Shown one piece after another: positions 9,703 to 25,714 of a stretch of 42,095 nt of DNA. Position 1 is the first letter of the stretch, and every line of letters starts with the position of its first letter. Source of the stretch: Deltaproteobacteria bacterium. Lineage in GTDB: Bacteria > Myxococcota_A > Polyangia > JAAYKL01. The notes beneath the pieces are model-generated. The model was not told where the DNA came from and did not search any database. It saw only the letters and a list, made by a program, of their open reading frames with translations. The position numbers and the translations under genes were made by a program. Location of the stretch: positions 1-42,095 of the forward strand of contig JAFGQN010000103.1 in assembly GCA_016935665.1 (NCBI GenBank). The letters run 5' to 3'.

Positions 9703-10365
9703 TTAAAACACGCGCTCCGGAACAAATATAATATCCCCTGGCTTCAGGCTGAAATCGGTGGTCTTGCCCTCCCCAATATCTTCAACTGAAACAACGTAGT
9801 TCTCCTTTTTACCGTTCACGACACGTGTCACCATGGTATTTTCAGTGCGTGCCATGGGGGTAAACCCGCCCGCAATGGATATGGCTGCCACCACCCCCAT
9901 GCCTTCCTGCCAGGGAAACGTTCCAGGCTTGTTGACCTGGCCAAACACGGACACTTTTTTACTGGTATATTCCTTTACCAGAATGGAAACCTGAGGCCTT
10001 TTTAAAAAGTCGCCGGCCACCAGTTCAGTTTCGATGCGCTTTTTAGTTTCGGCAGGCGTTAAACCGCCAACAACAATGCTTCCAATCAAGGGAAAGTCAA
10101 TAGTCCCATCGGAGGCAACTCTGTATGAAGAGCTTAATTCCTTTTCGCCAAAAACCCGCACATCGAACACGTCACCTGGGCCCAGGGTGGTATCTTCCAC
10201 TGGCATCGTTGTCGTTGCGCCAGGACCACCGACAGGGGGATTCGTATTTCCGCCTCGCAACGCCGGGGTACACCCTGCGAGGAATAAAGTCACCATCGCC
10301 AACATTGCTGCCCAAACACAATGAACGATAAACTCCATCAATCCATTTTTGATGATTCTAATCAA
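9703..10365 (-). CDS. outer-membrane polysaccharide export (OPX/Wza-like) lipoprotein
   Basis: A 220-residue lipoprotein (lipobox LAGC, Cys32) with a polysaccharide-export domain followed by one SLBB domain. The export domain starts at LGPGDVFDVRVFGEKELS and includes VASDGTIDFPLIGSI and LTPAETKKRIE. The SLBB region holds VFGQVNKPGTFPW, ISIAGGF and the terminal SLKPGDIIFVP. It ends there, without the extra domains and C-terminal amphipathic helix by which full Wza spans the outer membrane, so it probably needs a partner pore. The preceding gene encodes a beta-barrel and stops ten bases upstream. The start is TTG with AAGGGTAGG upstream; an ATG lies nine codons downstream. Last gene of the cluster. 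Confidence 0.88.
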   Translation of the reverse strand: MIRIIKNGLMEFIVHCVWAAMLAMVTLFLAGCTPALRGGNTNPPVGGPGATTTMPVEDTTLGPGDVFDVRVFGEKELSSSYRVASDGTIDFPLIGSIVVGGLTPAETKKRIETELVAGDFLKRPQVSILVKEYTSKKVSVFGQVNKPGTFPWQEGMGVVAAISIAGGFTPMARTENTMVTRVVNGKKENYVVSVEDIGEGKTTDFSLKPGDIIFVPERVF

Positions 10366-10374
10366 ACCTACCCT

Positions 10375-11718
10375 TTAGTAATGCGCTCGGGCGCCAAGGA
10401 AAATTTCGACTCTCGAAAACGATGCGTCTTCATGTTCCGTGGGCAGCGGATTACGTGATGTATCCTTTATGGTTGAACTAAAGTCTGTCACATCTTTTAA
10501 AAATCGCAACGACATATGGAAGGATAACCAGTCAGAAGCGCGAAGCTCCGAAAGGATTTTGAATGCAATCCAGACATCATCTCTTTCAAACTGATCCGGT
10601 GTCACGCTGGTATCATTTTCGCGCTGCACAGTTCTATCGAAGTACGCATATTTCCTTTTGTACACACTCCCATCAAACGAAAGCAGCAATCGTCCGGCAA
10701 AAATGCGCTGATAATTCGCGTATCCGCCAGTCATCACATAATAATTGGCGTAAAACGAATCCATGAAATCTCTTTTTATGCCCACAGTGAGTTTGGCGCC
10801 TCTACTAAAATAAAACATCACGGCGCCGTCCCCAATAATACCTTCAAAATCCGAATCCTGTTCGTAAAACCCTACCCCATATCCCAGAAGCGCTCTAAAG
10901 CCAAAACGCTCGAGGAGCAATCCCTGGGCGCCAAACCAGCTTCGCAACGGATACGAATCCACGTTTTGTGCGTGGTCGCCAAAATACACAGTAGGTCGGA
11001 AAATCACGTTCGAAATCAGAGCCGTCTTGGGAAAAATTTTCCAATTGGTCAACAAACTGGCTTCGTGTGAAAAACGATTGTAGTCGATCCCCACCCGTTT
11101 GTCGTCAAACACGAGTAAATCCAAACGATATTTGGGTTCTATTGTCAGAGTGCCGCCACCTGGTTTAATCTTGAAACCTAACATTGGGACTATGTGATGC
11201 TTGTTCTGAGCATCAGATGACGATTCGTAAGGTTCCAGCGTTTTTATATACGTCACACCTCCCAGCAGAGATACTTTTCGCTCAGGATAAACAGTAAAAT
11301 TCAAATGACTGTCCACACCGAATGGATTTGTTTTACTATTGAATTTTTCTACGCGGTCCTTTTCACTGGCAAAATATCTGTCGTAAAAAGCGGCAACACC
11401 AAACCGAAACAACGCCTTCGGCAACGCACTGTCCACAGCACCGTCAATTTTTTCAGTTCTTTCTCCAGAGCGGGTAGAAATGTCCACGTATGGCGTCACA
11501 CGAAGTCTTGCAGCACGAACAGCATCGTTGTCATAAGTGGCATTGGAATCGAATCCCACTTCTGTTCCGAGCCCCAGATGCAGTACGAGCGAACTGCTCA
11601 GTTTGATCCCTGGTCCTTCCGAACTATCTCTGTCTTCAAGCCACGCCTGAGCTTTGGAACTCTTTGGTACCGAAATGATGAAAAGCAATGTAAGGAAAAA
11701 GAGAAAGAAGACTCTCAT
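10375..11718 (-). CDS. outer-membrane beta-barrel protein, probable exporter partner
   Basis: A 447-residue protein with a cleavable signal peptide (cut probably after SSKA) and alternating hydrophobic/polar strands with aromatic girdles to the end, finishing in Tyr (FLGARAHY), as outer-membrane barrels do. I count roughly fourteen to eighteen likely strands by eye. Its place directly before a short export lipoprotein gene suggests that it forms the outer-membrane pore for that protein, as reported for Wzp-type barrels in Myxococcus; this is inferred from context. A barrel is also expected as an Nfs/Glt-type component, so either or both roles are possible. Confidence 0.8.
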   Translation of the reverse strand: MRVFFLFFLTLLFIISVPKSSKAQAWLEDRDSSEGPGIKLSSSLVLHLGLGTEVGFDSNATYDNDAVRAARLRVTPYVDISTRSGERTEKIDGAVDSALPKALFRFGVAAFYDRYFASEKDRVEKFNSKTNPFGVDSHLNFTVYPERKVSLLGGVTYIKTLEPYESSSDAQNKHHIVPMLGFKIKPGGGTLTIEPKYRLDLLVFDDKRVGIDYNRFSHEASLLTNWKIFPKTALISNVIFRPTVYFGDHAQNVDSYPLRSWFGAQGLLLERFGFRALLGYGVGFYEQDSDFEGIIGDGAVMFYFSRGAKLTVGIKRDFMDSFYANYYVMTGGYANYQRIFAGRLLLSFDGSVYKRKYAYFDRTVQRENDTSVTPDQFERDDVWIAFKILSELRASDWLSFHMSLRFLKDVTDFSSTIKDTSRNPLPTEHEDASFSRVEIFLGARAHY

Positions 11719-11782
11719 AAAATTGATTTCTGGTTAAATCGCCTGGCATCCCTCCCCATCAGCAGGTAAACCAAACAACCGC

Positions 11783-12364
11783 CTATCGGAATCCACTGGC
11801 CACAGTTGGACGAACAGTGGGTTCCGGTGTAAATATTTCCTGTTCCGGTGTCGTTGCTTCTTCAGTGGTAATCTCTTCGCTTACCTTTACCTCAGATTCA
11901 GATGCACCTACTATTATGTCGCTGTTTCCCACGCAAGTATCGGCCTGTGTACGCAACCCGTTCAATTTGTTAAAACTAACCTGCAAAATAACGAACTGGT
12001 GTTTCGCCGTCCCCGAATCTTTGGCATTAATGGCCAACTCAAGCGTATTTACGCGTTTCTGTATCCCTTGCAATAGCGTCTGAATCTTCGTCAACTTATC
12101 GTCAATGCACAAAATTCTAACCGTATCCTTCTCTTTTCGTGCATTATCAATCATATTACGAACAAACATTTCTATATGTAATGAATTTTCCAGTTGTGTC
12201 TGAACATAACCGATCATTTCCGACTCGGCAATATCCTCCGCAACGTTATCGTCTGGATTCATTTTTCCCTGATTCTCAGCACCAGCTACCATCGCACTAA
12301 TCAGGAACAACCCTATAACTGTAGTAGCAGTCCACAACTGTCTAACTTCTGCAAAAAGTCTCAT
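11783..12364 (-). CDS. small secreted coiled-coil protein, unknown
   Basis: A 193-residue protein when started at the ATG at 12364, which has GAGG six bases upstream; a TTG four codons earlier also opens the frame. A signal peptide (LFLISAMVAGA) suggests periplasmic location. The mature part is helical, with RILCIDDKLTKIQTLLQGIQ, FVILQVSFNKLNGLRTQAD and a TCVG motif, then an acidic Thr/Glu/Pro tail. The pattern of a Cys-Asp-Lys helix and a closing L..A..CVG recalls conserved but uncharacterised myxobacterial proteins. The two cysteines could form a disulfide. It heads the three-gene block with the barrel and export lipoprotein. Confidence 0.7.
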   Translation of the reverse strand: MRLFAEVRQLWTATTVIGLFLISAMVAGAENQGKMNPDDNVAEDIAESEMIGYVQTQLENSLHIEMFVRNMIDNARKEKDTVRILCIDDKLTKIQTLLQGIQKRVNTLELAINAKDSGTAKHQFVILQVSFNKLNGLRTQADTCVGNSDIIVGASESEVKVSEEITTEEATTPEQEIFTPEPTVRPTVASGFR

Positions 12365-12751
12365 TTTTTTCCTCAAACAAATGTTTCACATAATGGCAAG
12401 AAAATCAAATTACAAATTCTTTGCCGTGAAGCGCCTTCGCATGCATTATCGCACGCATGTATCCGCTTTAAATTTTAATGTTAAACTGATGTCATCGCAA
12501 TGTATAGTTCCAGCAAATCAACATTTTTAAAAAAATAGTCAAACCGACGCATTCCCTTAAACCGTTATGATCAGCCATACATGGTCGTATCGATGATAAA
12601 TATCGCGACGCCAATTAATTTGTTCATGTTTTAAACAACTCTCAAATTTCACCCTGGTCAAAAAGCAAAATCTACAATCAGCCTGTTTTGATCGATTTTA
12701 AATAATCACCGAACGCAAAATCAGCCAATTTCAAAGGACACTTTTTTTATT
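12365..12751. other. 387-base intergenic region inside the cluster
   Basis: AT-rich spacer between the end of the FHA/TonB-like gene and the small secreted-protein gene. It contains a terminator-like hairpin at 12722-12762 and a candidate ECF-type promoter at 12486-12511, so it probably divides the cluster into two transcription units. No gene is recognised. Confidence 0.5.
12486..12511 (-). promoter_or_regulatory. candidate ECF-sigma promoter upstream of the export block
   Basis: On the minus strand GGAACT (12511-12506) is followed after 16 bases by TCAG (12489-12486). This matches the general layout of extracytoplasmic-function sigma promoters (GGAAC-type -35, short TC-containing -10). The ATG of the secreted-protein gene is about 120 bases downstream. 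The sigma factor encoded at 25121-25714 is an obvious candidate to read it. Short motifs like this occur by chance. Confidence 0.3.
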
Positions 12752-12762
12752 CTAATTGGCTG
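12722..12762 (-). terminator. hairpin at the 3' end of the motor operon
   Basis: Read on the minus strand, CAGCCAATT (12762-12754) and AATTGGCTG (12730-12722) form a perfect nine-base inverted repeat with a 23-base loop. The first arm contains most of the stop codon of the FHA/TonB-like gene. A short ATTTTG follows. The long loop and weak T-run mean it may be an attenuator or mRNA-stabilising hairpin rather than a strong terminator. Confidence 0.4.
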
Positions 12763-14251
12763 GCGTGAATAGAAAGGGATACTCGAAAGTAACGGTGCCA
12801 CCCTCTGGAGGGGGAAATCGGAATCGCAAAAATGCACTGGTAATACAGTCTCCGACTTCACCATTCAGTTGATTTAAAGTTGGTCTCGCGGTGGTGACTT
12901 TACCGCTGCCTGAAATAGTGAAGCGAATTGTAATCTTTCCTGTTAAGGAAGGATCTCGCTTTAACCCACGTTCGTAACAGCCTTTTATCGCTCCAATTCG
13001 CCGATTTACGACTGAGGCCACGTCTCCTGAGCTCATCATTCCGGTTCCACCGGATGCCATGGGAGCTTTCTTCTTGACGGTACCTCTGATTTGCTTCTCT
13101 GGTCCTGGCCCCCTCGTTTTTACATCTTTGTCGCCCTCAGAAGATTTAATCTGTTCCACATCCGCGGCAGTCTCACCGCCCTTACCTCCCGCTGGTCCGC
13201 TCAATTTACCTTTTCCATCGCCCTGTTGCACCCCCACCCCGTTCACCTGACTCAGAAGTTCATCCTGATCCGCCGCAACATCACCACCACTTAATACGTC
13301 TATCACTGCTCCTTCACCAGCCCCCCCCAGACTTGCGAGGATTTTATTTATCCCCTGTTGCGCCATTTGCTCCGCGAGTTCAGCTCTCTTCCGGGCTCTT
13401 TCTTTGGCTGCTTCTTCAGAATCCTTCGGCGGCGTATTCTGAAGATTTGCTTTCGGTGTTTCGACCTTTGGTTTCGTTTTTTCTTTCGCTTCTTCCTTTT
13501 CTTTCTCCAGTTCCTTATCCCCTTTGCTGTCCTTTAAATCGCTGTCTTTTATTTTCTCTTTTTCGAATGTGGCTTCACTGGCATTCAATAACGCCTGCAA
13601 ATCTCTATATTTTTCTTCCAGCGTTTTTTCAGGCCAGTCATTTAGTTCAAAATATAAAATGATCGCCGAATGAAAGGACAAGGAAATGATGAAACATAAT
13701 GTAATTATCAACTCCAATCCCTGGAACAGAGAACCTTTCACGGCAGCCGGCAACTGTGGTCTGGGTTGAATGGGGGGCGGCGAAACAAATTGAAACAAAA
13801 TCGTTGTATTTCCTAAAACAACTTTGCCGCGTGAATCGTCGTTTAAAAGCAGCTGGTACACGTCACCTTTTTTCCGAACGACCTTCAGACCAACAGTTTC
13901 GCTTAGCTCATACAACTTGCCCTTAATCGAAACTTTGCCCAGAGTATTGCTCGAAAAATTCAAAACATAGGGAGCATTACCCCCCCTGGATTCAAACAAA
14001 CAAAATCTAGAAATTTTAACGTCTTCCTGCGAAATGACAAAATGATTCTTTTCAGAAGGCCCTATAAAGACACTTTCCCTTTTACGAATAATTCGCTCTT
14101 CAACAATTTTGCCATTGTTGACGATTCCAATGCGCAGTACGCGAAGGGCGTTCTTCTTTGGTCGCCCCTGCGTTTTCCCAAGACTGGAATTCCAAGTTCC
14201 TTGTTTATTTCCGGATGAAGTCGTACGTGATTTCGAGTTGGTATCGGCCAT
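12752..14251 (-). CDS. FHA-like / TonB-like coupling protein (AgmX/PglI C-terminal family, GltG-type)
   Basis: A 499-residue inner-membrane protein. Residues about 36-155 form an FHA-like cytoplasmic domain (LRIGIVNNGKIVEERIIRKR, RGKVVLGNTTILFQFV), residues 179-201 a single membrane helix, residues about 205-290 a Lys/Glu-rich helical periplasmic stalk, and the last 95 residues the AgmX/PglI-type TonB-like domain (VNRRIGAIKGCYERGL, LTGKITIRFTI, FRFPPPEGG). Family knowledge: such proteins link a proton-driven motor in the inner membrane to envelope partners, as in myxobacterial gliding and Nfs systems. Canonical FHA residues are missing: GR is GP and SR-x-H is SRFC, so phosphothreonine binding is doubtful. 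It lies last in the motor operon. AGGAAAG precedes the ATG. Confidence 0.87.
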   Translation of the reverse strand: MADTNSKSRTTSSGNKQGTWNSSLGKTQGRPKKNALRVLRIGIVNNGKIVEERIIRKRESVFIGPSEKNHFVISQEDVKISRFCLFESRGGNAPYVLNFSSNTLGKVSIKGKLYELSETVGLKVVRKKGDVYQLLLNDDSRGKVVLGNTTILFQFVSPPPIQPRPQLPAAVKGSLFQGLELIITLCFIISLSFHSAIILYFELNDWPEKTLEEKYRDLQALLNASEATFEKEKIKDSDLKDSKGDKELEKEKEEAKEKTKPKVETPKANLQNTPPKDSEEAAKERARKRAELAEQMAQQGINKILASLGGAGEGAVIDVLSGGDVAADQDELLSQVNGVGVQQGDGKGKLSGPAGGKGGETAADVEQIKSSEGDKDVKTRGPGPEKQIRGTVKKKAPMASGGTGMMSSGDVASVVNRRIGAIKGCYERGLKRDPSLTGKITIRFTISGSGKVTTARPTLNQLNGEVGDCITSAFLRFRFPPPEGGTVTFEYPFLFTPAN

Positions 14252-14354
14252 CGATTAACTTTCCTGTATTTCAGAGAAGCTAGACGACCTATTGATGCGG
14301 ACAAATGGTCCCCTATCCCCCTACATAAGACGGACCGTATAAGAAAAATCCAAA

Positions 14355-14933
14355 CTATTCAATATTATAATTCGCGCCTTCAGCCGCGACAAATTTGAAT
14401 TTTTCGAATTCGGCCTGCCCAGCGGTATAGAGAACCTCAGTCACCAGGCGGTAACTGGTTTTACTATCCGCGACCACCAATGCCATTCCTTCAAATGGTC
14501 TACTTGTGCGAGCCGCCAGCATCTTCAAGTGCTGCACACGCTCCTTCAACGCATCCAATAGTGGATTAATCAAAAGCCCATCCTGACCGTCGCGTTTCAA
14601 ACTCTCGTCCACCACGCCGTCTCGAAGGTCAGCAACCTTGTTGTCCTGGACCATAATTGCCCGTTTGGAAATCGCGATCACAATCGCGTCTTCCAAGCCT
14701 TTTTGTTCTTCACTGGTGCGCGGAAGCATAAGCTCATCAGATTGTCGGATCTGAACAGGATCGGAGCCGAAACTCTTCATGAGGAAGCACAGGATGATAG
14801 TAAAAGCATCCATGAGAGAGTTGATCAGCAACTTCTCTTTCTCGACCTTACGGCGTCTGCGAGCTTCTTTCTTTGCTTTTTGCTTTTCTGCCCATATCGC
14901 ATCAATATCGACAGCGCTTTGTCCTTGAGCCAT
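14355..14933 (-). CDS. ExbD/TolR-family motor subunit (AglQ/AglS-like), Asp-containing
   Basis: A 192-residue protein with a highly basic cytoplasmic N-terminus (residues 18-34), one membrane helix (about 35-55) and a periplasmic domain. The helix segment NSLMDAFTIILCFL places Asp42 where ExbD and TolR carry the essential proton-binding Asp. With the ExbB-like and second ExbD-like genes it should form an ion channel that turns proton flow into mechanical work. Shine-Dalgarno AGGGAGGA is upstream of ATG. The gene lies about 70 bases after the other ExbD-like gene, the order TolQ-TolR-TolR matching the Myxococcus Agl motor. Confidence 0.88.
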   Translation of the reverse strand: MAQGQSAVDIDAIWAEKQKAKKEARRRRKVEKEKLLINSLMDAFTIILCFLMKSFGSDPVQIRQSDELMLPRTSEEQKGLEDAIVIAISKRAIMVQDNKVADLRDGVVDESLKRDGQDGLLINPLLDALKERVQHLKMLAARTSRPFEGMALVVADSKTSYRLVTEVLYTAGQAEFEKFKFVAAEGANYNIE

Positions 14934-15006
14934 GGAATTCCTCCCTAAAATCCGATAACCGGATGGAATATGCTATATCTAATAACTTCCTGGTCCTTAC
15001 AATAAA

Positions 15007-15522
15007 TCAGACCACACCGCGAGTCAGCGTAACAACAGGGAAAAGCTGACTTTCCGGCTCTGATCCACCACGAGAGAAGTCCATAGCCTTAATCAGCACC
15101 TCGTATGGAATATCGTCTTCCGCACCAAGAATGATATTCACCTCTTCACGATGCAAATCCTTCAATTCCTTTAACTTCCGATTGAATTCAGCAAAATCCC
15201 AGTCATCGTCTTTTTTAGGAATATCCGGGCCAGCGGAAGCAGTTTCCGTTGCCTGCGACATCCATGGCAGTCGATGAATCGGATTTACTTTAAAATGAAA
15301 ACCCTGATCAGTGATCATCACAGTCAAATTTAACGCTTTGTTTTCATCCTGCGGTTGTTGCGCTGGCGCCTGAGCGATTTTGGGCGCATTCACATCCAAA
15401 GTCATGAAGCGCACAAACACTGCACCATACAGCAACAAAGGAATCAACATACACACAAGGTTGAGAATAGGAATTAGAGGATCGCCCTCATATCCTTCTT
15501 CTTCTCTTCTTGGCTTTCCCAT
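15007..15522 (-). CDS. ExbD/TolR-family motor subunit with Asn in place of the proton-carrying Asp
   Basis: A 171-residue protein with a short charged N-terminus, one membrane helix (about 16-38) and a periplasmic domain with an Asp-rich loop (KKDDDWDFAEF). Aligning PILNLVCMLIPLLL by eye to the ExbD helix puts Asn21 at the position of the essential Asp; no other acid lies within the helix (Asp14 is just before it). The protein should still assemble with the ExbB-like subunit but may be unable to carry protons itself. The start has AGGAAGG upstream. It lies 113 bases downstream of the ExbB-like gene. Confidence 0.83.
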   Translation of the reverse strand: MGKPRREEEGYEGDPLIPILNLVCMLIPLLLYGAVFVRFMTLDVNAPKIAQAPAQQPQDENKALNLTVMITDQGFHFKVNPIHRLPWMSQATETASAGPDIPKKDDDWDFAEFNRKLKELKDLHREEVNIILGAEDDIPYEVLIKAMDFSRGGSEPESQLFPVVTLTRGVV

Positions 15523-15635
15523 AACCTGTTGTCCTTCCTACAAAATCTCAGAATATTAGTACTCAGGGAGGTTTCTCTCAATCTGTGGAGGAATCCCTCC
15601 CCTGATGAGCACTTTTCAACAACGAGCCTTAACTA

Positions 15636-16274
15636 CTAAGCACCACCGGCACGATAACGAGAAACAAGCAGGTTCTCCAGTTTCACTGAATACTGATCAA
15701 TCTCGTTCAGAATTTTAGTGGTAACTGCCTGCAGGAACATCTGCGCGGTCATACAGGGAATCGCCACGATAAGACCAAAAGCGGTGGTATTCATAGCGAC
15801 AGAAATACCTTTCGCGAGAGCGGCAGCTCGTTGGTCAGGAGCCGCTGATTCGAGAGCGGAGAACGCTTGAATCAGACCCACAATCGTACCAAGAAGACCG
15901 AGAAGTGTTGCAACGTTCGCAACACCACCCAGAGTAGGGGTTCTTTTCTGCACGATAGGAACAACTTCCAAAGTGGCTTCTTCGATTGCATTCGCAATCT
16001 CCATTTCGCCCTTGTTAGCTCTAGTCAAACCTGCCTTGATCACTTTGGGCAAAGCAGCGTTAGGTGCTGCGTTGCAAAGCTTGATAGCGCGATCAATGTT
16101 GTTCGCCATAACCAGCTTCTGAATCTGCCCCATGAACGCATTGGCATTAATGTTGTACTTGAAAAAGAGGAAAATAAATCGCTCTACAATGATTCCAAGA
16201 CCAACAACTGACGTGAAAGCAATAACATACATCCAGCCACCGCCACTATCAAACGCTTCTGCAATAGCCTGCAT
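15636..16274 (-). CDS. MotA/TolQ/ExbB-family motor subunit (AglR-like)
   Basis: A 212-residue inner-membrane protein with three membrane helices (about 14-37, 118-138, 160-182). The conserved channel-lining regions are present: PTLGGVANVATLLGLLGTIV in helix 2 and AMNTTAFGLIVAIP in helix 3, including the Thr residues that face the ion path in ExbB. It should form the pentameric ring around the TolR-like subunits. It has a near-perfect Shine-Dalgarno (AAGGAGG) and is the first gene of the four-gene motor operon; a promoter candidate lies at 16388-16417. Confidence 0.93.
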   Translation of the reverse strand: MQAIAEAFDSGGGWMYVIAFTSVVGLGIIVERFIFLFFKYNINANAFMGQIQKLVMANNIDRAIKLCNAAPNAALPKVIKAGLTRANKGEMEIANAIEEATLEVVPIVQKRTPTLGGVANVATLLGLLGTIVGLIQAFSALESAAPDQRAAALAKGISVAMNTTAFGLIVAIPCMTAQMFLQAVTTKILNEIDQYSVKLENLLVSRYRAGGA

Positions 16275-16354
16275 CCTAAATCCTCCTTAGAGTAATGCCC
16301 TCGTTGGGGCTGTAATTAAAACCCTGCTTTGATTGTTCAACTCACAAAATATCT

Positions 16355-16382
16355 GCGCTCAACTACAGTATTTGTTAAGCGC
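16355..16382. promoter_or_regulatory. inverted repeat at the expected motor-operon start site
   Basis: GCGCTCAAC (16355-16363) and GTTAAGCGC (16374-16382) are inverted repeats matching at eight of nine pairs, with a 10-base spacer. They lie just downstream of the candidate -10 box, so a protein bound here would cover the transcription start; a 5'-leader hairpin is the alternative. Confidence 0.3.
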
Positions 16383-16387
16383 ATTGG

Positions 16388-16417
16388 AGAATAGCACATG
16401 CTTTTTCCTTTCAACAA
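16388..16417 (-). promoter_or_regulatory. candidate sigma-70-type promoter of the motor operon
   Basis: On the minus strand TTGTTG (16417-16412) and TATTCT (16393-16388) are separated by 18 bases, in the 276-base gap before the ExbB-like gene. The match to consensus is partial. Confidence 0.3.
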
Positions 16418-16550
16418 GAGAAATTTCGCCTCTTTTGGGGTTTTGAGAAAAAAAAGAAACATATTATTCTACCGAAACAGAAAAATTACTAAGGTACTTA
16501 AATGAAAAAGGAATATGGGGAAGAGGAAGAATTGGGTTCACGGAAATGCC

Positions 16551-17945
16551 CTATTCCCAGCCATCATCTTCGGCTTTCTCCAAGTCATTACCTGGCTTCG
16601 ATTGGGCACCCGCTGCTTCATTGGATTTCTTCGCTTGCTGACGTTCTTTGGCTTTCGCAGCGGCCTCACGCTCTCGCTGTAATCGCACTTGTTCTCGTTC
16701 CAAAAGAACATCCAGCTCTTTGATATATTTGAAAGATTCATCGCTTTTTGAAAGTGATGCGCCTTTCTCCGCTTTATATCGTGCAAAAAGATCTCTCGAT
16801 TTTTTTAGTCGCGCCATCCGGCTCATTCCGCCCAATCCATCGGCTGCATAATATAATACAGCCATATTGAATGTGATAGCAGGAGTAGTAGGTAACATTT
16901 TTCTGGCTTTGCTCAGAGCCGACAGGGCTTGTTTCCAGCGTCCCGCTCCTCGAAGAGCATTTCCGTAATTCAAATACAATACCCCCCACGACGGCGTAAT
17001 TTGAATAGCGCGTTCCAACATCTCTATCGCGTCTTCGTAATTTCCAGCCAGCATGTACTCAATGGCCAGATTGTTCAGGGCTTCCGGATAAAACGGATTT
17101 ATTTCAATCGCTTTTTCAAACTTTCTGATAGCCAGAACATTAAATCCTTTTCGTAATTCCAACATGCCTTGCAGAAAAAAAACCTCAGAAATCTTGTCAT
17201 TAATACTTACAACCTGATTGAAAACGGATTCGGCCAATTCAATTCGACCCATTTTCAAATTTGCTTTACCAATTTGCAACATCGCCATCGCGCTTCGCTC
17301 GTCAATTCGCAGCGCTCGTTTTGCCATACGAATAGCATCGTCATATCTCTGTGCGGAAACGAGAACATCCGAATACAAAATTAACAGCTTTATGTTTCCA
17401 GGAGATTTGGAACTGGCACTATGTACTGTTTGAACCGCCTGCTCCGCTTTCCCATAACGAAGCAAAATTTTGGCAGCTGCACTCACTGCTGGAAGATAAT
17501 CGCCTTTTTTTTCTATCGATATCTGATAATAATTCAATGCTTTCAAATCTGCGCCTTTGCGTTCATACACAACACCCAGATTATACAGCGGCTGAGGCGC
17601 AGCAGGATCGCTTTGAATTGCCTGGCGAAATGACTGCTCCGCCTCCTTTAACCTGCCACTGGCTCCGGCCATAACGCCGGTGTCAAAATATTGTTTTCCT
17701 GTGGGTGATAACTCGAGTGGACTTTTTCTGGATCCGGCGGCGCCTGTGACCGCCTTTCCCTGCCCATCCCGTTGTCGTGTGGCAGGTCCTGTTCCATCCC
17801 CCAGTTCAGATCCAGGGCGCGAAGTCCTTGCGGCGCCACACGCCATCACGAAGAATGTTAAACACACCATTAAGGCACCATGCGCTATTTGAAGGCGCCG
17901 AATGCACCTATTCAAACCCCGTTTCATATTCCAAACAGACCTCAT
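16551..17945 (-). CDS. TPR lipoprotein (AglT/GltE-like)
   Basis: A 464-residue lipoprotein with a signal ending VMAC (Cys36) and about eight tetratricopeptide repeats between residues 80 and 370, for example PLYNLGVVYERKGADLKALN and ALNNLAIEYMLAGNYEDAIE. A charged helical tail rich in Lys, Glu and Ala follows. TPRs scaffold protein complexes, here probably in the periplasm under a membrane. The start at 17945 is set by GGGAGG upstream and by a four-base ATGA overlap with the stop of the preceding TPR gene, which implies translational coupling. Myxobacterial gliding and Nfs machines contain a similar TPR lipoprotein; that equivalence is inferred. Confidence 0.84.
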   Translation of the reverse strand: MRSVWNMKRGLNRCIRRLQIAHGALMVCLTFFVMACGAARTSRPGSELGDGTGPATRQRDGQGKAVTGAAGSRKSPLELSPTGKQYFDTGVMAGASGRLKEAEQSFRQAIQSDPAAPQPLYNLGVVYERKGADLKALNYYQISIEKKGDYLPAVSAAAKILLRYGKAEQAVQTVHSASSKSPGNIKLLILYSDVLVSAQRYDDAIRMAKRALRIDERSAMAMLQIGKANLKMGRIELAESVFNQVVSINDKISEVFFLQGMLELRKGFNVLAIRKFEKAIEINPFYPEALNNLAIEYMLAGNYEDAIEMLERAIQITPSWGVLYLNYGNALRGAGRWKQALSALSKARKMLPTTPAITFNMAVLYYAADGLGGMSRMARLKKSRDLFARYKAEKGASLSKSDESFKYIKELDVLLEREQVRLQREREAAAKAKERQQAKKSNEAAGAQSKPGNDLEKAEDDGWE

Positions 17946-20900
17946 TGGGCGCCTCCCGCCGCCCATGGGGGAACTGTCAGAGAATCGGTGCCCATCTGCA
18001 TCAGGCCATTATGCTGTCGCGGAAAATTTTCGGGGTCGTACGCATTCATTCTCTCCAACGCAAGTAAACTCCATTTATTGCTCAAATTCCCGGCGCGTGC
18101 CATTTTTATTGCGATTTTGTATTCAGACACCGCACGCTGTTCCATTTTGCTCACGTGTTGTTCCATTGCCATTCGGAATTTGTCTTCGTATTCCATCATT
18201 ACCAGATCCCTGTCTTCCGGTGGCAACATTCTCAATTGTTTCTGTAAAGCCGCATCCAAAGGTGGTGGCGGAATATTAAGAATCGCCTTTGCAAGCACTT
18301 CGTAGGCATATCCTACTCTATACGCGGCCGCCAACGACCACACAGGACGTCTAAATTTCTGAACTTCTTTATATTGAGTCTCAAATTCCCTTACCTTTTT
18401 GGCGCCTTCTGCGATTTGTTTTTCAATTTGTTTCAAAGTGCCCGAAATGGCGAAACTCTCGAATTTCTTCATATCTTCTTCTATTCGCAGAAATCGACTT
18501 TCCGCCGCGTATTCCGCAGACATAGAGCCGGGGGACGGATCATACTCATTGTAGTACTGTATGACTTTTTCTTCTGCATTGCGTTCATCACGTAATTTCC
18601 TGCGGGCACGATGGCATTGCACAATTCGATACGCCGCTTTCACTATAAAGGGTCCAGCCTTGTCGTTATTTTTGAAATTTTTCACGAAATATTCAAACGA
18701 ATCAATGGCCTTGCGATACTCTTTTGCCCTGAACTTCATATCGGCAGCATTGAACGCCGCTTCCACTCTCATTTCGGAATTATCGGTTAACCCCGAATAT
18801 TGATTCCAATAATTGGCTGCCCGTGTGTAGTCCTGCAAATTAGTCAAAATAAGCGCCGTATTCAGCACTGCATCATTTCGATACTCCGACTGCTCGAACC
18901 GCGACTCATCCGCCAGTATTTTATAAGTGCGAAGCGCTTGATCGTACTCAAAAAAGGCATTCGCTGAATATGCCTGCTTAAAAAGACACTTATCCATCCA
19001 CTGGCTCTGGGGATATTCATCAACAATCCGACCATATAACTCCATTGCTGTTTTATTTCGTTGTGCGTTTTCATATGCCAACGCCGCATTGTGAAGAGCG
19101 GCATCCGCACCGGGGTGATTGGGGGCTCGTCCCACAGCAGCAACCAACTGCTCGCCGGCACTGGTGCATACTTCAGAGTCCTTCCCGGAGATACACGACT
19201 TAAATTCATTCATTGCCCGCTGCATGGCCACATCGCCCAGCAAACTGTCCAGAGCCAATCCTTCGTCATCCTGCAGATTCAGGCCCGCGCCACATTTCTT
19301 CTCCTGCTCCATCAATGCCAGTTGCTCTTTGAAATCCAAATCCAGCTGCTCCGACGCCATATTCAATAATGTCTTCCAACTGAAGACAGCTATTTCATCC
19401 TTTTGGCAATACTTGTCATAAATTTCAAAGTATCGTTTTTTGGCTTCATCCCAATGACCATATCGATAAAAATTCTGTGCACTCTGATATTCGAAGGTGC
19501 CCGCATCCGTGGATGTGGCTTCCGAGTCCGTAAATGCTTCACGTTCCCGCATCAGTTCCATCACAATGGCTGGAAGAGGAATACTGGGGGGAGCAGGTGG
19601 ATCACCGACCAATTCGGGGGGCTTATCCCTGAGCACCAAACGACCACTCCTGATTTCCTCATCGATTAGCCGCTCCAAAGAAATTATCACCATTCGGGAC
19701 GCATCCTCACGGTAACGATCATCGAGGTTGGAATCGCGAACGCGTCTGTACTCTTCTCTGGCCTGTGCATACTGCCCCGACCAGAACAGTGCGTCGGCCA
19801 ATTGATACATTAAATCGTACGCATCGGCCACGTCGGGATTCTGTTCCAGATATTTTCGATACGCATCTGCAGCCAGCCCGTATTCTTCAAGTGCAAACTG
19901 CATCACTTCATCGTCGCCCGCCGCTTTCGCCTGGGATTTCAACGCCTGCGCCTGCTGATGATGCAACAATGCTGCGTTGCTAAGCGCCTCTTTGGCCATG
20001 TCCTCCACCTTCGCCTGAATTTCGGGACTGTCCATATTGGCGTTCCACCACTGGGTCCCCCGCCCGAACTCGTCCAGTTTCCCTCGCTCAACCAACTCTT
20101 TGTCGAATTTTCGTTGAATCCGATATGAATTGGCTATCTTGTCCCGAACAAATGGCGCGTCTTTGTCCAATGGCCAGCGCTGCAGAACCAGCTCCCAAAT
20201 CTGTATCGCCTCGTCATGTTTTTCGTTATCCGCAAAAATATCACCAAGGCGAGTATATACTTCCTTTACCCACGGCCTGTCCTGCGGCATTAATTCCGGA
20301 TCTTGAATTCGCTCCAGGGCAGTCTGAGAATCCGGCTGGGAATTCATATCCCAATCATCGGTAAAAAAGCATACTGCCAGATATTGAATGGCTTCCGGAC
20401 GCATGCTGGAATTTCGAATATTATTTTTGTCTGAATAATCCACCACTTTTGAAAAAGTGGCAATGGCTTCGGGATATTTGTCCGCCTTGTAATAGCTCCA
20501 TGCCAGCTTATACAATCCTTTGTCATAAAACTTGTGGGACTCATCCAATGCCAGCTTTTCGTATGCCGCAATTGCCGTTTCAACACCCCACTTTGAAATA
20601 TCAAAATCAAAATGATAGTTGCCAATGAGCCACCAGCTCTCAAAAAAGAATCGGCTATTGGTTACCACTGGTTTACAGTCCACGAATGGATTTACAAACC
20701 CGTCGGTGTCCGTATCAACGCTTTCAAGCATCAGCGAGGAGGCGGGGCTGCTCATATCGGTGTGCTTATTTTTTTTGCTTTGCGCAATCTCCGCCGCATC
20801 ATAAGTGAATTTATTTGGACAAACAAGATTCAACCACGCCAACCGAGCGTCATTGTCACGCCCCATTTCCTTTAAACAGTATCCCAGCAAATAGTAGGCG

Positions 20901-21670
20901 CCGTCGATATTTTCATAATTGGAATATCGTTTAACCAAATCCTGAAACAGCTTAATTGAACGGGAGAAATCCTTTTCGGGCAACGCCATGTTTTGTGCCA
21001 TTCCCCTGTCCGCGGCCTCTCCGTATTTATCCAGATAATCGATGTAAGCCAGATAGGAGTCATCGTAATACAATTCCGCAAGTCTAAACATGGCATCCGG
21101 AGTATAGGGCGGCGAATCCGGATACTTCTTTAGAAACCGCTCAAAATACGCAATGGCATTTTTCAACGCTTTCTCTTCCAGCTCCTCTTCTCGTTTGATG
21201 CGTCCCTCATACTGCTGCTCTATATTTTTACGACGAATTTCATACAGCCGCGTTGCCGTAGACCGGATAGACTCGCGAAACTCCTGTGCCCGACGTTCAT
21301 ACAGTTCCCAATCCACTTTTCGTTGCTCCTCCAGCAACATCATCTGATTTGCTGTTGGCGCGTTTTTTATGTTCAATACCGTTGTGGAAATATGATTGGG
21401 AATGCTCTCTTCCGAATGAACCGTTTCCGTACTCTCTGATTGAGTATTTCTCCCTGACTCCGACAAATTCACGGAATTATCCGGTTCATCGCCCACTGGT
21501 TTTGAGGGAACATCCGCATCGGAAACCGCCGACACATCAGGCGACTCCTGCTGCGCGACCAAACGCAAAGGAACGGCAAAAATTAGCAGCGAAAGCAACA
21601 TCGGGCCCATCCCTGCCACTCGTTCGTTTACGCAATGCCCACTTAACACATATGTTGTTCGATTACGCAC
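17942..21670 (-). CDS. large periplasmic TPR protein (AgmK/GltI-like)
   Basis: About 1,242 residues from the GTG at 21670, which has GGGGAG upstream and follows the previous stop by seven bases. The frame stays open to an ATG at 21736 inside the previous gene, and an ATG at 21610 is also possible. A hydrophobic segment (LLSLLIFAVPLRLVA) acts as signal peptide. The rest carries many degenerate TPRs, with family-typical stretches such as YDKGLYKLAWSYYKADKYPE, LALDESHKF and AYRVGYAYEVLAKAIL, and aromatic-rich repeats. It should be a long helical solenoid scaffold in the periplasm. Large TPR proteins of this kind (AgmK/GltI) are part of the myxobacterial gliding complex. Function here is inferred from context. 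Confidence 0.83.
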   Translation of the reverse strand: MRNRTTYVLSGHCVNERVAGMGPMLLSLLIFAVPLRLVAQQESPDVSAVSDADVPSKPVGDEPDNSVNLSESGRNTQSESTETVHSEESIPNHISTTVLNIKNAPTANQMMLLEEQRKVDWELYERRAQEFRESIRSTATRLYEIRRKNIEQQYEGRIKREEELEEKALKNAIAYFERFLKKYPDSPPYTPDAMFRLAELYYDDSYLAYIDYLDKYGEAADRGMAQNMALPEKDFSRSIKLFQDLVKRYSNYENIDGAYYLLGYCLKEMGRDNDARLAWLNLVCPNKFTYDAAEIAQSKKNKHTDMSSPASSLMLESVDTDTDGFVNPFVDCKPVVTNSRFFFESWWLIGNYHFDFDISKWGVETAIAAYEKLALDESHKFYDKGLYKLAWSYYKADKYPEAIATFSKVVDYSDKNNIRNSSMRPEAIQYLAVCFFTDDWDMNSQPDSQTALERIQDPELMPQDRPWVKEVYTRLGDIFADNEKHDEAIQIWELVLQRWPLDKDAPFVRDKIANSYRIQRKFDKELVERGKLDEFGRGTQWWNANMDSPEIQAKVEDMAKEALSNAALLHHQQAQALKSQAKAAGDDEVMQFALEEYGLAADAYRKYLEQNPDVADAYDLMYQLADALFWSGQYAQAREEYRRVRDSNLDDRYREDASRMVIISLERLIDEEIRSGRLVLRDKPPELVGDPPAPPSIPLPAIVMELMREREAFTDSEATSTDAGTFEYQSAQNFYRYGHWDEAKKRYFEIYDKYCQKDEIAVFSWKTLLNMASEQLDLDFKEQLALMEQEKKCGAGLNLQDDEGLALDSLLGDVAMQRAMNEFKSCISGKDSEVCTSAGEQLVAAVGRAPNHPGADAALHNAALAYENAQRNKTAMELYGRIVDEYPQSQWMDKCLFKQAYSANAFFEYDQALRTYKILADESRFEQSEYRNDAVLNTALILTNLQDYTRAANYWNQYSGLTDNSEMRVEAAFNAADMKFRAKEYRKAIDSFEYFVKNFKNNDKAGPFIVKAAYRIVQCHRARRKLRDERNAEEKVIQYYNEYDPSPGSMSAEYAAESRFLRIEEDMKKFESFAISGTLKQIEKQIAEGAKKVREFETQYKEVQKFRRPVWSLAAAYRVGYAYEVLAKAILNIPPPPLDAALQKQLRMLPPEDRDLVMMEYEDKFRMAMEQHVSKMEQRAVSEYKIAIKMARAGNLSNKWSLLALERMNAYDPENFPRQHNGLMQMGTDSLTVPPWAAGGAQ

Positions 21671-21677
21671 CGATTTG

Positions 21678-23984
21678 CTACTCCCCTGTTTCGGTCGACT
21701 TCCCGCCAAACCCATCCGCCTCTTCGAATTCGTCATCCAGCCACTGTATTTCGTTGGTGCGATTCCGGCTTAATTGAACCGCGCGAGATTTATGTTCTTC
21801 CTTTTTCATCCACGCAATATCGATGATGCCCACATCTGCCTTGATCATCAATTCTTCGAAACGCTTACGAATGCCACTGAAATTTTCTCGTGCCACCCCG
21901 TTTACAACTTCACGCGCTTCCGTATTCAACGCCTCCAGCTGAATCTGATATTGCCGCAGTTTTGCCTCCTCGGACGCCAGTTCAGTGCGGATTTTCGCAA
22001 CCTCATCTGTCGCGGCTACTTCAATATCCTGGGAAAGTCGATCAACCACCAAAATGGTTTTTAACAGGGTCGCAAGTGCTGACTTGTAGCGACTTGCTTT
22101 TCGACCGGAATGGCGCGTCATCTGTGAATATTCTTCAGTCAGCGCGAACAGCATTTCTACGACCGCTGTATCTCGCTGGTCTTCCTCTCCGCCAATTCCG
22201 GCCTGATAGCGCGCCTTTTCAATATCCAGTTTCACCGAAGCCATCTCGTCGCGAATATTCTTCACCACCGAGTTGTACCTCGCCAACTGAGACCAGTACC
22301 CATCCAACACGCTTTTAGAAACCTGTGAGCGATAGTCCGGTTTTTCAATATATGTCTCCAGCCCAACAATCACTGCCTGCAACTTGTCGAGCATCACCTC
22401 GTATCTGGCCAGTTCCTGTCTCAATGCGGTGTACTTTTCTCGCGCGTCTCGTTCCCTGGTCTTAAACGCCTTGTCGTCAATAGGCAAATCAGAAACAGCC
22501 GCTTCCAGGCGCGCCCGCTGCGATGCCAATTTCGCCACAAGGGACGGGGGCACGTCATCCTCAAGTTCCCTTAAAAAACGGACTGTCAATCTCGCCAACT
22601 GATTCCGGTATTGCTGGTTGCGCCGCATCCCCGAACGCAGTAACGGAATGGCGTTTACCGGATTGGTGCCATTAACGACAGCACCAATCAATTCCGCCAA
22701 TCGTTTTGATTCACTGGTGAACTCCTGCGCCTTTGCCAGATCATCTGTAACCAGAAACGCTCTTTTTACCTCCGGTTCCTCTCCGGCCCAGATAACGACT
22801 TCTCTTGGAACCAGACTTTGCACATTCAACGTGTCCACACTGCGGGCCATCAGCAAATCGAAAAATTCACCGGTATCACCGCTTTGCGCAAGGGCCTTAT
22901 CCATCATTTCCTCCACCGGCGAGAATTCCTCAATGGTTTGCCCAAATACAGTTTCCGCCTCTTCATACCTGCCCGCGCTGGCCAGCAGTTGCCCGCGCAA
23001 CAATTTTGCTCTAGGAATATATCGGCTATCGGGTATGGAAACCGTCAGCACCTCCAGAATCCGCTCGGCTCCAATGGTATTGCCCGCGCGCATGTTCACT
23101 GCTGCAGATTCATACAACGCCGCATCGTAATACGGTGAAAACTTATCGATATGCCCGTAGGCGGACATGGCATTTTCCACATCATCCATTTCATAGAGTA
23201 CGCGGCCATATCCCAAAAACAGCAAATCCTGCAGTTGACGATACGATGGCCGAACTTCGGGATACTTTTCAACGGCCTGCTGGAATGCCGCCACCGCATC
23301 TTCGAGACGCGCCTCTTTAATAAGGGTGGCGCCAATAAAGTACGCCGCTTTCAGCTGCAGTTCCTCGTTATCTTTTACATGAGCAAATTCCGCTCGCGCT
23401 TTCTCGTAATCCCCCTGAAAATAATAATACTTTCCGGTGATATATCGCGCAGTTGCATCTGATTTCTGTTCCAACAGTTCAATATAATCGCCGACTTGAT
23501 GAAAATCGTCGAGATGAACGGCAACTTCAACCAGTCTGGAAATGGCAGCCGGACGAAACAACAGGAATCCGTTTTTTTCCCCTTCATTGAGAAATCGCTG
23601 AAATTCAGTTCGCGCTCCATAATAATCACGGGCCAGAAAGAGGGAATCCGCGTAATAAAACAATGCTTCGGGAAACACGGCGTGACCGGGAAAATTCTCA
23701 ACCACATCCAACAGGATAATGGACGCGCGCTGATAATCTTTCAAATCGTAATGATTCACTCCGTCCACAAGCCGGGACTCTGCGTAATGCACGCCGCGAT
23801 ACCCATGCACATCCAGATGCTGACTGCGCAACTTGTTGACGCTGGCCTGCAGTTGCCGCATGGATGTTGTCATATCGTCGATGTCGTCCGCAATAGCCGG
23901 GCGCAAAGCGCCCACTGTGAACAAAAACGCGGACAGAAGCGTAAATCCGTAACGCAATAACCCCAATCGTTTACAGCTAGTCAT
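21678..23984 (-). CDS. periplasmic TPR / coiled-coil protein
   Basis: A 768-residue protein with a cleavable signal peptide (cut near AIA-DD, residue 32). Residues about 60-360 hold TPRs (ALFYYADSLFLARDYYGART, YYFQGDYEKARAEFAHVK, LLASAGRYEEAETVFGQ). The C-terminal half is long coiled-coil (about 470-720), with a closing ADVGIIDIAWMKKEEHKS motif and an acidic tail. The same closing motif occurs, in my recollection, in uncharacterised TPR proteins encoded in deltaproteobacterial gliding-like clusters. It starts six bases after the stop of the preceding gene, in one operon with the next two TPR genes. Confidence 0.82.
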   Translation of the reverse strand: MTSCKRLGLLRYGFTLLSAFLFTVGALRPAIADDIDDMTTSMRQLQASVNKLRSQHLDVHGYRGVHYAESRLVDGVNHYDLKDYQRASIILLDVVENFPGHAVFPEALFYYADSLFLARDYYGARTEFQRFLNEGEKNGFLLFRPAAISRLVEVAVHLDDFHQVGDYIELLEQKSDATARYITGKYYYFQGDYEKARAEFAHVKDNEELQLKAAYFIGATLIKEARLEDAVAAFQQAVEKYPEVRPSYRQLQDLLFLGYGRVLYEMDDVENAMSAYGHIDKFSPYYDAALYESAAVNMRAGNTIGAERILEVLTVSIPDSRYIPRAKLLRGQLLASAGRYEEAETVFGQTIEEFSPVEEMMDKALAQSGDTGEFFDLLMARSVDTLNVQSLVPREVVIWAGEEPEVKRAFLVTDDLAKAQEFTSESKRLAELIGAVVNGTNPVNAIPLLRSGMRRNQQYRNQLARLTVRFLRELEDDVPPSLVAKLASQRARLEAAVSDLPIDDKAFKTRERDAREKYTALRQELARYEVMLDKLQAVIVGLETYIEKPDYRSQVSKSVLDGYWSQLARYNSVVKNIRDEMASVKLDIEKARYQAGIGGEEDQRDTAVVEMLFALTEEYSQMTRHSGRKASRYKSALATLLKTILVVDRLSQDIEVAATDEVAKIRTELASEEAKLRQYQIQLEALNTEAREVVNGVARENFSGIRKRFEELMIKADVGIIDIAWMKKEEHKSRAVQLSRNRTNEIQWLDDEFEEADGFGGKSTETGE

Positions 23985-23990
23985 GAACGG

Positions 23991-24809
23991 CTACTTTTCT
24001 GATTTCTCAAGCGCACTTTTTCCATCGAGCACATCGTATTCTGAAAATTCTTCCACGTATCGAACCGCTGGACGCTCCTCCAGAGGCGTTGTTGGTCCAC
24101 CTTTTTCAAATCCAATTACCTGCAATTTAATGGATTTTCCCTCATCCACGGTAAATGTGTAATTGGATTTTATTTTAAACGTGTAGCCTTTGAGGTATGA
24201 AAAAATGCCATATCCGTGCCCCCGATACTGCAAAACCACCTCCAGCGTATGATCTCCTGGTGACACTGGGCCTTCGAACAGCTCGATATGCTGCCGTTTG
24301 GCAAGGCTGCCAGATTCATCGGTTTCCTGAAAAATCGGCCCGCCATCCAGCAGCAGAGACGCTTTGTACAGACGGAATGAGCCGCCCATTTCGTTCCGGA
24401 AGGAAAGACTGGCCTGCGCACCGGCAATCTTCTTTTCGAGAACTGTCTCCGCCAATAGACTTAGTCTGGCCTTGGAACGAAATATCTGCTCCTTTAGCCG
24501 ATTCACGCGATCCTCCAAATCCCGCAACCGGACTGTATATGTCCCCTTTTCGGGCTCCGTTGAAGATGCATTTGCCGAAGGCGGTGGCAGAGGCGGTGGC
24601 GTGTCACCATCATCTGCCTGCCCACCTTTTTTGTTTTTTTTATTTTGTTTAGCGGAGTTGCCGTCTTTTTTTGTCTTATTGGAGGCGGCTTTTTTTGAAG
24701 AACTCGCCTGCGTGTCACTTTTGGCGGCGGAATTCTGTGCCACACACCAGCCGCAAGTTAATAACATCCAGATACCAACGATTATCGCCCCTGTTTTTGG
24801 TCGAACCAT
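23991..24809 (-). CDS. conserved envelope protein of Glt/Nfs-like clusters
   Basis: A 272-residue protein with a signal peptide, a Lys/Ala/Pro-rich linker (residues 28-85), a short coiled coil (YTVRLRDLEDRVNRLKEQIF) and a beta-rich C-terminal domain (SFRLYKASLLLDG, PVSPGDHTLEVVLQYRGHG, GIFSYLKGYTFK, PTTPLEERPAVRY). Closely similar myxobacterial proteins exist and are often mislabelled dihydrolipoamide acetyltransferase because of the Ala/Pro linker; there is no lipoyl or acyltransferase motif. It heads the cluster (AAGAGG before the ATG) and is divergent from the ECF sigma gene. Role unknown; probably a structural part of the envelope machine. Confidence 0.78.
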   Translation of the reverse strand: MVRPKTGAIIVGIWMLLTCGWCVAQNSAAKSDTQASSSKKAASNKTKKDGNSAKQNKKNKKGGQADDGDTPPPLPPPSANASSTEPEKGTYTVRLRDLEDRVNRLKEQIFRSKARLSLLAETVLEKKIAGAQASLSFRNEMGGSFRLYKASLLLDGGPIFQETDESGSLAKRQHIELFEGPVSPGDHTLEVVLQYRGHGYGIFSYLKGYTFKIKSNYTFTVDEGKSIKLQVIGFEKGGPTTPLEERPAVRYVEEFSEYDVLDGKSALEKSEK

Positions 24810-24909: not shown

Positions 24910-25120
24910 CGCACATGGCGACGCACAGACGCGATATCGCCCAACTCAGCAATGAAATTCCTGTGCGACTGAAAAAAGTTGATATTCTCCCATGGTCAGT
25001 TAATAACGGAGAGTTCTTTGAAGAAAGTGGTCATCAATATATACAAGATCTTTATCCAGGGATGTGCGTCAGACTCGAAAGGAACACGATCCCTGGATGC
25101 TGCAAAAGGGCACCCTGTAT

Positions 25121-25714
25121 ATGGTTCGTAAAACTGACGAGGAATTGATTGCGATGTTTCAAACCGGAGACGCGGCTGCCTTCGAAGCGCTTTTTGATAA
25201 ATACAAGGCACCCATCTATGTGTTTCTGGTCAGGCAATGCGGGAACCGTGAAATTGCGGCGGATTTAACCCAGGACGTTTTTACCAAGTTACTGAACCGC
25301 GCCGATACATTTCGCCATCAATCTAAATTCTCCACCTGGATTTACACCATTGCCCGAAACACAGCCATGGATCACGCCAGAAAATCGAAACATCGCAATC
25401 ACGCGTCGCTGGATGCGGCCGCGGGGGATGACGGACCGGCGCTGATTGAAAAAGTCTCTGGAAACGCACCCACCCCTGAGCGAAGTTCGGGCGCCGGGGA
25501 ACTTCAAAAGGCGTTGGCCAGAGCAATCGATCAGTTGCCACAGGACCAACGGGAGGTCTTTATTTTGCGGGAATATCACGGGATGCCGTTTGCTGAAATT
25601 GCAGACGTGGTCGATGCTAAAATCGGCACCGTGAAAAGTCGTATGCGGTACGCCCTGGAAGCGCTTCGTCTGGAGTTGCACCAGTATGAGGAATATGCAA
25701 AGGAGCTGTCATGA
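25121..25714 (+). CDS. ECF-type RNA polymerase sigma factor
   Basis: A 197-residue sigma-70-family factor with regions 2 and 4 only. Region 2 begins DEELIAMFQTGDAAAFEALF and includes AADLTQDVFTKLL and FSTWIYTIARNTAMDHARK; region 4 is LPQDQREVFILREYHGMPFA followed by the helix-turn-helix IADVVDAKIGTVKSRMRYAL. It would direct RNA polymerase to a small regulon. The start at 25121 has AAAAGGG upstream; in-frame ATGs at 25097 and 25064 would add a leader unlike the family. Its stop overlaps the anti-sigma start by four bases (ATGA), so the pair is translationally coupled. It is divergent from the envelope-machine cluster, its likely target. Confidence 0.92.
   Translation: MVRKTDEELIAMFQTGDAAAFEALFDKYKAPIYVFLVRQCGNREIAADLTQDVFTKLLNRADTFRHQSKFSTWIYTIARNTAMDHARKSKHRNHASLDAAAGDDGPALIEKVSGNAPTPERSSGAGELQKALARAIDQLPQDQREVFILREYHGMPFAEIADVVDAKIGTVKSRMRYALEALRLELHQYEEYAKELS

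Follow-up and report, generated by a model that had tools for sequence, protein, structure and literature searches.

A conserved Myxococcota gene neighbourhood joins a TolQ-TolR-type motor and a Glt-like scaffold to a polysaccharide export pair

Can a proton-driven motor and a Glt-like envelope scaffold belong to the same device as a polysaccharide exit? The question is raised by contig JAFGQN010000103.1 (C160) of the 8.2 Mb draft genome of a Deltaproteobacteria bacterium (GCA_016935665.1), the entire contig of 42,095 nucleotides being the stretch analysed here and hereafter called the window. It harbors a run of eleven open frames, all on the minus strand, from position 24809 down to 9703, which were identified from the list of open reading frames and by profile hidden Markov model (HMM) searches. 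The run starts with a secreted protein (g272), followed by GltC-, GltD- and GltE-like proteins with tetratricopeptide repeats (TPR), a TolQ-TolR-TolR motor and a GltG/TonB-like coupler, and ends with a small secreted protein (sec197), an outer-membrane barrel and an outer-membrane polysaccharide export (OPX) lipoprotein. An initial annotation, made from the letters alone, had proposed eleven same-strand genes here, and all of them were found to be present. HMM searches and AlphaFold2 (AF2) models agreed with its naming of the motor, three TPR proteins (one a lipoprotein), the small secreted protein, the barrel and a Wza-like lipoprotein.

Conservation of the locus among relatives

Relatives were compared by tblastn and profile HMMs on 20-kb stretches, giving 111 loci after removal of duplicates; in the profile scan of genome contigs, the best 80 loci were considered. 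The order g272-GltC-GltD-GltE-(TolQ-TolR-TolR)-GltG-sec-barrel-OPX and its strand were common to dozens of genomes, far beyond chance. In 83 loci at least 4 kb was available downstream of GltG; the barrel was present in 74 of these and OPX in 68, always accompanied by the barrel. Among the 70 loci with sequence on both sides, motor and export genes occurred together in 23, export genes without a motor in 36, a motor without export genes in 2 and neither in 3, the remaining 6 showing other combinations, chiefly a barrel without OPX. The motor lies in cis in a third of these 70 loci, and as export without a motor outnumbers motor with export, the link between scaffold and export is the firmer one. 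Motor, Glt-core scaffold and OPX/barrel exit are thus a conserved neighbourhood in several Myxococcota classes; the 23 loci carrying both motor and export genes led to rejection of the idea of a curiosity confined to the window, which the initial annotation had named as a finding that would defeat its single-machine proposal.

Named carriers are metagenome-assembled genomes of Myxococcota, Myxococcales, Deltaproteobacteria and Polyangia, together with Sorangium, Sandaracinus and Anaeromyxobacter. Motor-bearing loci were found in the window's own family, in four further families of its class (f5, f7, f18 and f21) and outside this class, for example in Lujinxingiaceae; in a Bradymonadaceae locus (L213), motor and sec genes are present and the sequence stops before the barrel. 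The cultured species Sorangium cellulosum and Anaeromyxobacter oryzae possess the locus without a motor in cis, and four genomes with the motor-less export form carry free-standing TolQ-TolR-TolR genes. Paralogous GltG loci contained neither barrel nor OPX, bar three divergent family f7 members of the same locus that fell under the score line.

Some loci deviate in their make-up. In family f3 (L049, L050), GltC/GltD/GltE-like sequence is contained in a single giant open frame, and barrel and OPX are absent. A giant secreted protein with FG-GAP β-propeller repeats is encoded between GltG and sec197 in L228 (12911-16753) and L260 (12794-18505).

The outer-membrane exit

The barrel (10375..11718, 447 aa) is an 18-stranded outer-membrane protein of the EpsX/ExoB/WzpB polysaccharide porin type. 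Its AF2 model, built with 32 orthologues, had a pLDDT of 86.2 and a pTM of 0.82, and 18 long strands were counted. The best solved match was the alginate exporter AlgE (Z 20.1, rmsd 4.5, 311 residues aligned); since Occ porins lay within 1 Z unit of AlgE, this match shows the fold and not the function. AlgE has been reported as the closest structural homologue of EpsX (Schwabe et al., PMC9601211). The preceding small secreted protein, sec197 (11783..12376), has conserved Cys90 and Cys148, with D84, C90, C148 and G150 invariant in the alignment, and travels with the barrel and OPX genes in Myxococcia loci. Neither the barrel nor sec197 matched any NCBIfam or Pfam family, and parts of the GltA, B, F, H, I, J and K kinds could escape such sequence searches.

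The OPX lipoprotein (9703..10365, 220 aa, lipobox LAGC) is of the short D1D2 type, with PF02563 at residues 57-130 (81 bits) and an SLBB domain at 136-215 that reaches the protein end. As described for composite OPX/β-barrel translocons (Schwabe 2022), it is within 280 aa, contains Poly_export and SLBB domains only, has no outer-membrane helix and is adjacent to an AlgE-like 18-stranded barrel, the two genes being 9 bp apart. It scored 88 bits against the EpsY family NF041843 and did not reach the cut-off of 320; the OPX on contig C58 of the same genome was nearer, at 137 bits. The match was far closer to PDB 9n9a (E 3e-50) than to the E. coli-type Wza (E ~1e-13). The 9n9a OPX is 62-66% identical to the Myxococcia members of the locus (L227, L251, L257) and, with 88 bits to EpsY, likewise falls far below the cut-off.

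Scaffold proteins paralogous to Glt

The first gene of the cluster, g272 (23991..24809), is the best conserved scaffold gene and is located upstream of GltC in most loci of the clade. It encodes a secreted protein with a coiled coil (88-123) and an 8-stranded β-sandwich (131-257); the AF2 model had a pLDDT of 78, mostly above 90 in the domain, and the fold search returned transthyretin/Ig-like matches of middling strength (Z up to 8.8). No Pfam or NCBIfam family matched g272. The GltC-like TPR protein (21678..23984, 768 aa) matched TPR families and NF033756, the latter with 57 bits over residues 54-379. The GltE-like TPR lipoprotein (16551..17966, 471 aa) matched NF033758 and has a putative lipobox, VMAC, at the end of its signal helix. 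The large GltD-like protein (17942..21736, 1264 aa), with TPR_6 and YbgF-like repeats, was assigned by size, TPR content and position, as the NCBIfam GltD model gave no match; its identity was 53-79% within the window's family and 24-36% to proteins at the equivalent place in other families.

All these scores are far below the Glt equivalog cut-offs (117 of 650 bits for the GltG-like coupler, 85 of 225 for GltE and 57 of 450 for GltC), and no GltG above the cut-off was found in the genome samples of the phylum that were searched. A closer Glt-type cluster is present on contig C3 of the same genome (L055, G000:C3:5000-24900), where GltG (396 bits, with an FHA domain) and GltC (279 bits) are nearer to Glt though likewise under the cut-offs; TolQ-TolR-TolR genes were not found within the 20 kb examined there. 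A tree built from 98 GltG sequences separated the locus type from full-length GltG as a single group (support 84) that also contained three other paralogues. Orthology to Glt was rejected on the basis of these scores and this placement; the proteins of the locus are paralogues of Glt and not orthologues, and the Agl/Glt/Nfs-type machine of the initial annotation appears to be a paralogue of Glt/Nfs and not a member. The locus does have the make-up of the Group B core of Luciano et al. (2011), as homologues of gltC, gltD, gltE and gltG and of aglR, Q and S are clustered in one region.

The motor and its coupler

The motor consists of a TolQ/ExbB/AglR-type subunit (15636..16274, 212 aa; PF01618, 87 bits), which is 85-98% identical within the window's family, and two ExbD/TolR-type subunits, TolR1 (15007..15522; PF02472, 36 bits) and TolR2 (14355..14933; PF02472, 34 bits). 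The membrane Asp of TolR2, Asp42 in the window, is present in all 41 embedded motors. In TolR1, Asn21 occupies the position expected for the proton-binding Asp, and in 40 of the 41 embedded motors this subunit is without the Asp (Asn in 38, Ser in 1, Ala in 1), the exception being L228. Asn was also observed in TolR1 of the C242 motor of the same genome and of the split f8/f19 clusters, and the Asp was present in TolR1 of all ten free-standing and divergent-pair motors looked at. The usual route of proton transfer would be closed to a homodimer of TolR1, which has lost the proton-binding Asp; a TolR1-TolR2 heterodimer with one proton-carrying subunit would be the simplest reading. Both AglQ and AglS are reported to have the Asp, and whether they form hetero- or homodimers is an open question (PMC9389320), to which the missing Asp of TolR1 is relevant. 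ExbBD-TonB and TolQR-Pal have a 5:2-kind proton motor and a TonB-like coupler in common with the locus; the window differs in its two unlike TolR subunits, one without the proton-binding Asp, and in having a polysaccharide exit instead of an import receptor. In one relative (L176, 9340-11940), TolR1-TolR2-TolR1-TolR2 are arranged in tandem downstream of TolQ.

The coupler (12752..14251, 499 aa) is composed of a cytoplasmic N domain, a transmembrane region at ~171-203, a periplasmic linker and a TonB-like C-terminal domain. It matched the GltG model NF033760 (117 bits), its C-terminal tail passed the cut-off of NF033768 (84.6 bits), and its profile matched TonB structures (E 5e-5). The TonB-like half of the earlier description "FHA-like/TonB-like" is thereby supported. 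The FHA-like half was rejected: HMM searches gave no FHA family match, and as the match to the GltG model begins only at model position 217, the N-terminal FHA region is absent, in contrast to the other GltG of this genome (L055).

Age of the embedded motor

With the GltG tree rooted on full-length GltG, parsimony favoured a cluster that already contained both motor and barrel at the base of the locus clade, requiring 5 changes against 7 if the motor was absent. In the TolQ tree, free-standing motors of motor-less families fell among the embedded ones, beside L228 (96 SH-aLRT), the rooting being uncertain; branches are long, and the placements of L122 and L054 are unsure. Owing to these two observations, the embedded form is probably the older one within the locus clade, nothing sure being said on Glt or Nfs; the suggestion that the locus is close to an ancestral form stands for this clade alone. 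A stronger proposal, that an obligate TolR1-TolR2 heterodimer with one proton carrier directly energises polymer export or release through the OPX/barrel pair and that the embedded form was the source of free-standing AglRQS-type motors, appears improbable to us. Divergent TolQ-TolR operon pairs were observed in the motor-less families f13, f17 and f14 (L182-L184), and one member of each pair clusters with free-standing motors.

A probable polysaccharide pathway for the exit

In relatives, the genes following OPX on the same strand include Wzc/polysaccharide co-polymerase (PCP) genes (L212, L219; near in L210), Wzy (L171, L208, L216, L228) and Wzx (L217), along with genes for glycosyltransferases and nucleotide-sugar enzymes. 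The genome of the window has three OPX genes: that on C58 is accompanied by its own barrel, PCP and Wzy, that on C180 adjoins an apparent ABC-transporter-dependent pathway, and the third is the window's own. On contig C192, genes for Wzc (768 aa) and Wzy (844 aa) form a pair with no OPX beside it. Over ~700 residues, this Wzc shares 35-40% identity with the Wzc encoded next to OPX in relatives (434-519 bits), and its Wzy partner likewise shows a relationship to the Wzy found there (108-171 bits), unlike the C58 PCP, which gave 31 bits against the PCPs beside OPX. In 8 relatives from other families, the contig with the export locus also carries the best match of the C192 Wzc; for G037, the locus was judged on GltG alone. 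Because the C192 pair matches the enzymes beside OPX and the C58 PCP does not, the export pair of the window most likely serves the C192 pathway, in which case the machine would be split over two places in the genome. The view of the locus as self-contained was therefore mistaken, the matching Wzc/Wzy pair lying on another contig.

A probable counterpart in Myxococcus

MXAN_1922 of M. xanthus is the gltD homologue of cluster G4, the function of which was left unexplained (Luciano et al. 2011, PMC3169522). The OPX protein of the biosurfactant polysaccharide (BPS), WzaB (MXAN_1915), has been called an orphan, and its barrel is WzpB (MXAN_1916) (PMC7310880, PMC9603273, PMC9601211). By locus tag, the G4 gltD homologue is ~seven genes from wzaB, and the Myxococcia-type loci L227, L249, L251 and L257 have one or two genes between GltG and sec, counts that fit the MXAN tags. 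G4 together with wzpB-wzaB is probably the Myxococcus form of the locus, as judged from the locus tags and the Myxococcia loci L227, L251 and L257. The assumption of the initial annotation that motor, scaffold and exporter parts are at separate loci in Myxococcus is therefore probably only partly true. No link of Glt or G4 to wzaB/wzpB was found in the article texts searched, and this absence is not proof.

Group B core/G4 has the same seven gene kinds in one run as the window, which adds g272, sec197, the 18-stranded barrel and the short OPX; the M. xanthus motors are at other loci. The BPS exporter, likened to the window by its published description, likewise pairs an 18-stranded barrel with an adjacent OPX of the short D1D2 type and, like the window's genome, keeps this OPX away from the Wzc/Wzy genes; the texts searched present it as an orphan pair and attach no machine to it. 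The AglRQS motor of M. xanthus powers Nfs, a complex paralogous to Glt, and sets the Exo polymer in motion (PMC3858216). Like the window, Agl-Nfs with ExoA/ExoB combines a Glt-like scaffold and a proton motor with a short-OPX/barrel exit for a Wzx/Wzy polymer. Its genes are spread over three loci; the nfsA-H genes are homologous to gltA-H, and Nfs is reported to be the closest relative of Glt, whereas the clade of the window lies apart from full-length GltG. The Agl-Glt gliding machine shares the motor, TonB-like coupler and TPR scaffold; the window differs from it in a GltG without the N-terminal FHA region, in scores far below the Glt cut-offs and in the presence of the export pair.

A probable motor-driven device at a polysaccharide exit

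In our estimate, the locus probably encodes a device, driven by a motor, for exporting a Wzx/Wzy polymer or working on it where it exits; a G4-type Group B transducer would be combined with a composite BPS-class OPX/barrel exit. The association of scaffold and exit is established by conserved linkage; from it we infer the mechanism, including a physical complex, the direction of force and the identity of the polymer. Wzc and Wzy from C192 would polymerise the chain, and the short OPX beneath the outer membrane would hand it to the 18-stranded barrel. Drawing on the proton gradient, TolQ and a TolR1-TolR2 heterodimer would move the TonB-like coupler, which would act via the GltD/GltC/GltE/g272 scaffold and put force on the exit, and the emerging polymer might thereby be released, moved or arranged on the surface. 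Since the exit is in the same gene run, unlike that of Agl-Nfs, force at the exit itself is possible. The conserved cluster suggests that a single machine serves these cells both to export a surface polymer and to work it. By its gene neighbourhood it connects the Glt core complex, for which no role outside gliding and sporulation had been settled in 2011, with polysaccharide export, and it offers a shared, testable explanation for the M. xanthus G4 cluster of unexplained function and the orphan BPS exporter.

Several observations weigh against such a device. The 36 loci with the motor-less export form indicate that the motor is not strictly required in cis. The gene gaps divide the run into three blocks: g272-GltC-GltD-GltE, in which genes overlap or are 6 bp apart, TolQ-TolR-TolR-GltG, preceded by a gap of 276 bp, and sec-barrel-OPX, preceded by one of 375 bp. 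These may be separate transcripts, and a single transcript cannot be claimed because of the gaps; promoter and terminator scans gave signals no more than chance. No polysaccharide synthesis genes were present near the locus in the window, in contrast to many relatives; the presence of such genes nearby served Schwabe et al. (2022) as a filter for their search and not as a condition of the mechanism. Also, Agl-Nfs in M. xanthus spores acts post-export without co-localisation with the export site (PMC3858216), so that a shared neighbourhood need not mean one particle.

In a narrower form of the device, the polymer exits passively via OPX/barrel, and motor and coupler act only afterwards, the scaffold carrying the polymer along the surface. 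We regard this as a serious contender, although somewhat short of an even chance. Agl-Nfs provides a precedent, as it moves Exo after secretion and Exo is exported even without Agl (PMC3858216), and loci L049, L050 and L235 of the clade keep the scaffold without barrel or OPX. However, the Nfs and Exo loci are separate in M. xanthus, whereas here 68 of 83 loci contain the exit genes within the run, which suggests a closer coupling than that of Nfs and Exo; moreover, BPS is reported not to be retained on the cell surface (PMC7310880).

A second narrower form assumes TonB-like gating, whereby the coupler reaches the exit and proton energy opens it or pulls the chain, the motor powering export. 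The TonB-like C-terminus of the coupler, its tight linkage to the exit genes and a barrel and OPX without an obvious energy source of their own are in agreement with this, but most export loci have no motor in cis, and the literature searched describes no motor requirement for the related exopolysaccharide exit of M. xanthus; we consider it unlikely. Still less persuasive is the possibility that the neighbours are unrelated envelope genes which do not form one machine and which co-regulation, for instance through the extracytoplasmic function (ECF) sigma factor next to g272, holds in one place. The three gapped blocks and the absence of the motor from many loci would fit, yet order and strand are strict over many families, paralogous GltG loci are without export genes, and an ECF gene was found beside 14 of 125 loci only, though many loci end before its position. 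A gliding machine that also needs slime is very improbable: Group B core homologues are present and Luciano et al. derive gliding from that core (PMC3169522), but in the same study a polar mutation of MXAN_1922 left M. xanthus motility unaffected, contig C3 of the window's genome carries GltC and GltG genes nearer to Glt, and barrel and OPX resemble an export pair.

Neighbouring genes

Divergent from g272, on the plus strand, are two candidate regulators, the ECF sigma factor (25064..25714; PF04542/PF08281) and an anti-sigma-like protein (25711..27015; weak zf-HC2 and TPR matches). The same divergent pair was observed beside g272 in L040, L047, L051, L052, L063-L066, L068, L070, L071 and L080, which belong to several families. 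Next to this pair, the minus strand (27155-29324) carries a gene whose product resembles CotH-type kinases (PF08757, 121 bits) and a second gene with weak similarity to porins; they may represent another surface or coat system. Farther along, a lipoprotein-like gene on the minus strand (37516-38826) encodes a long Asp/Ser/Gly/Thr repeat ahead of its C-terminal part.

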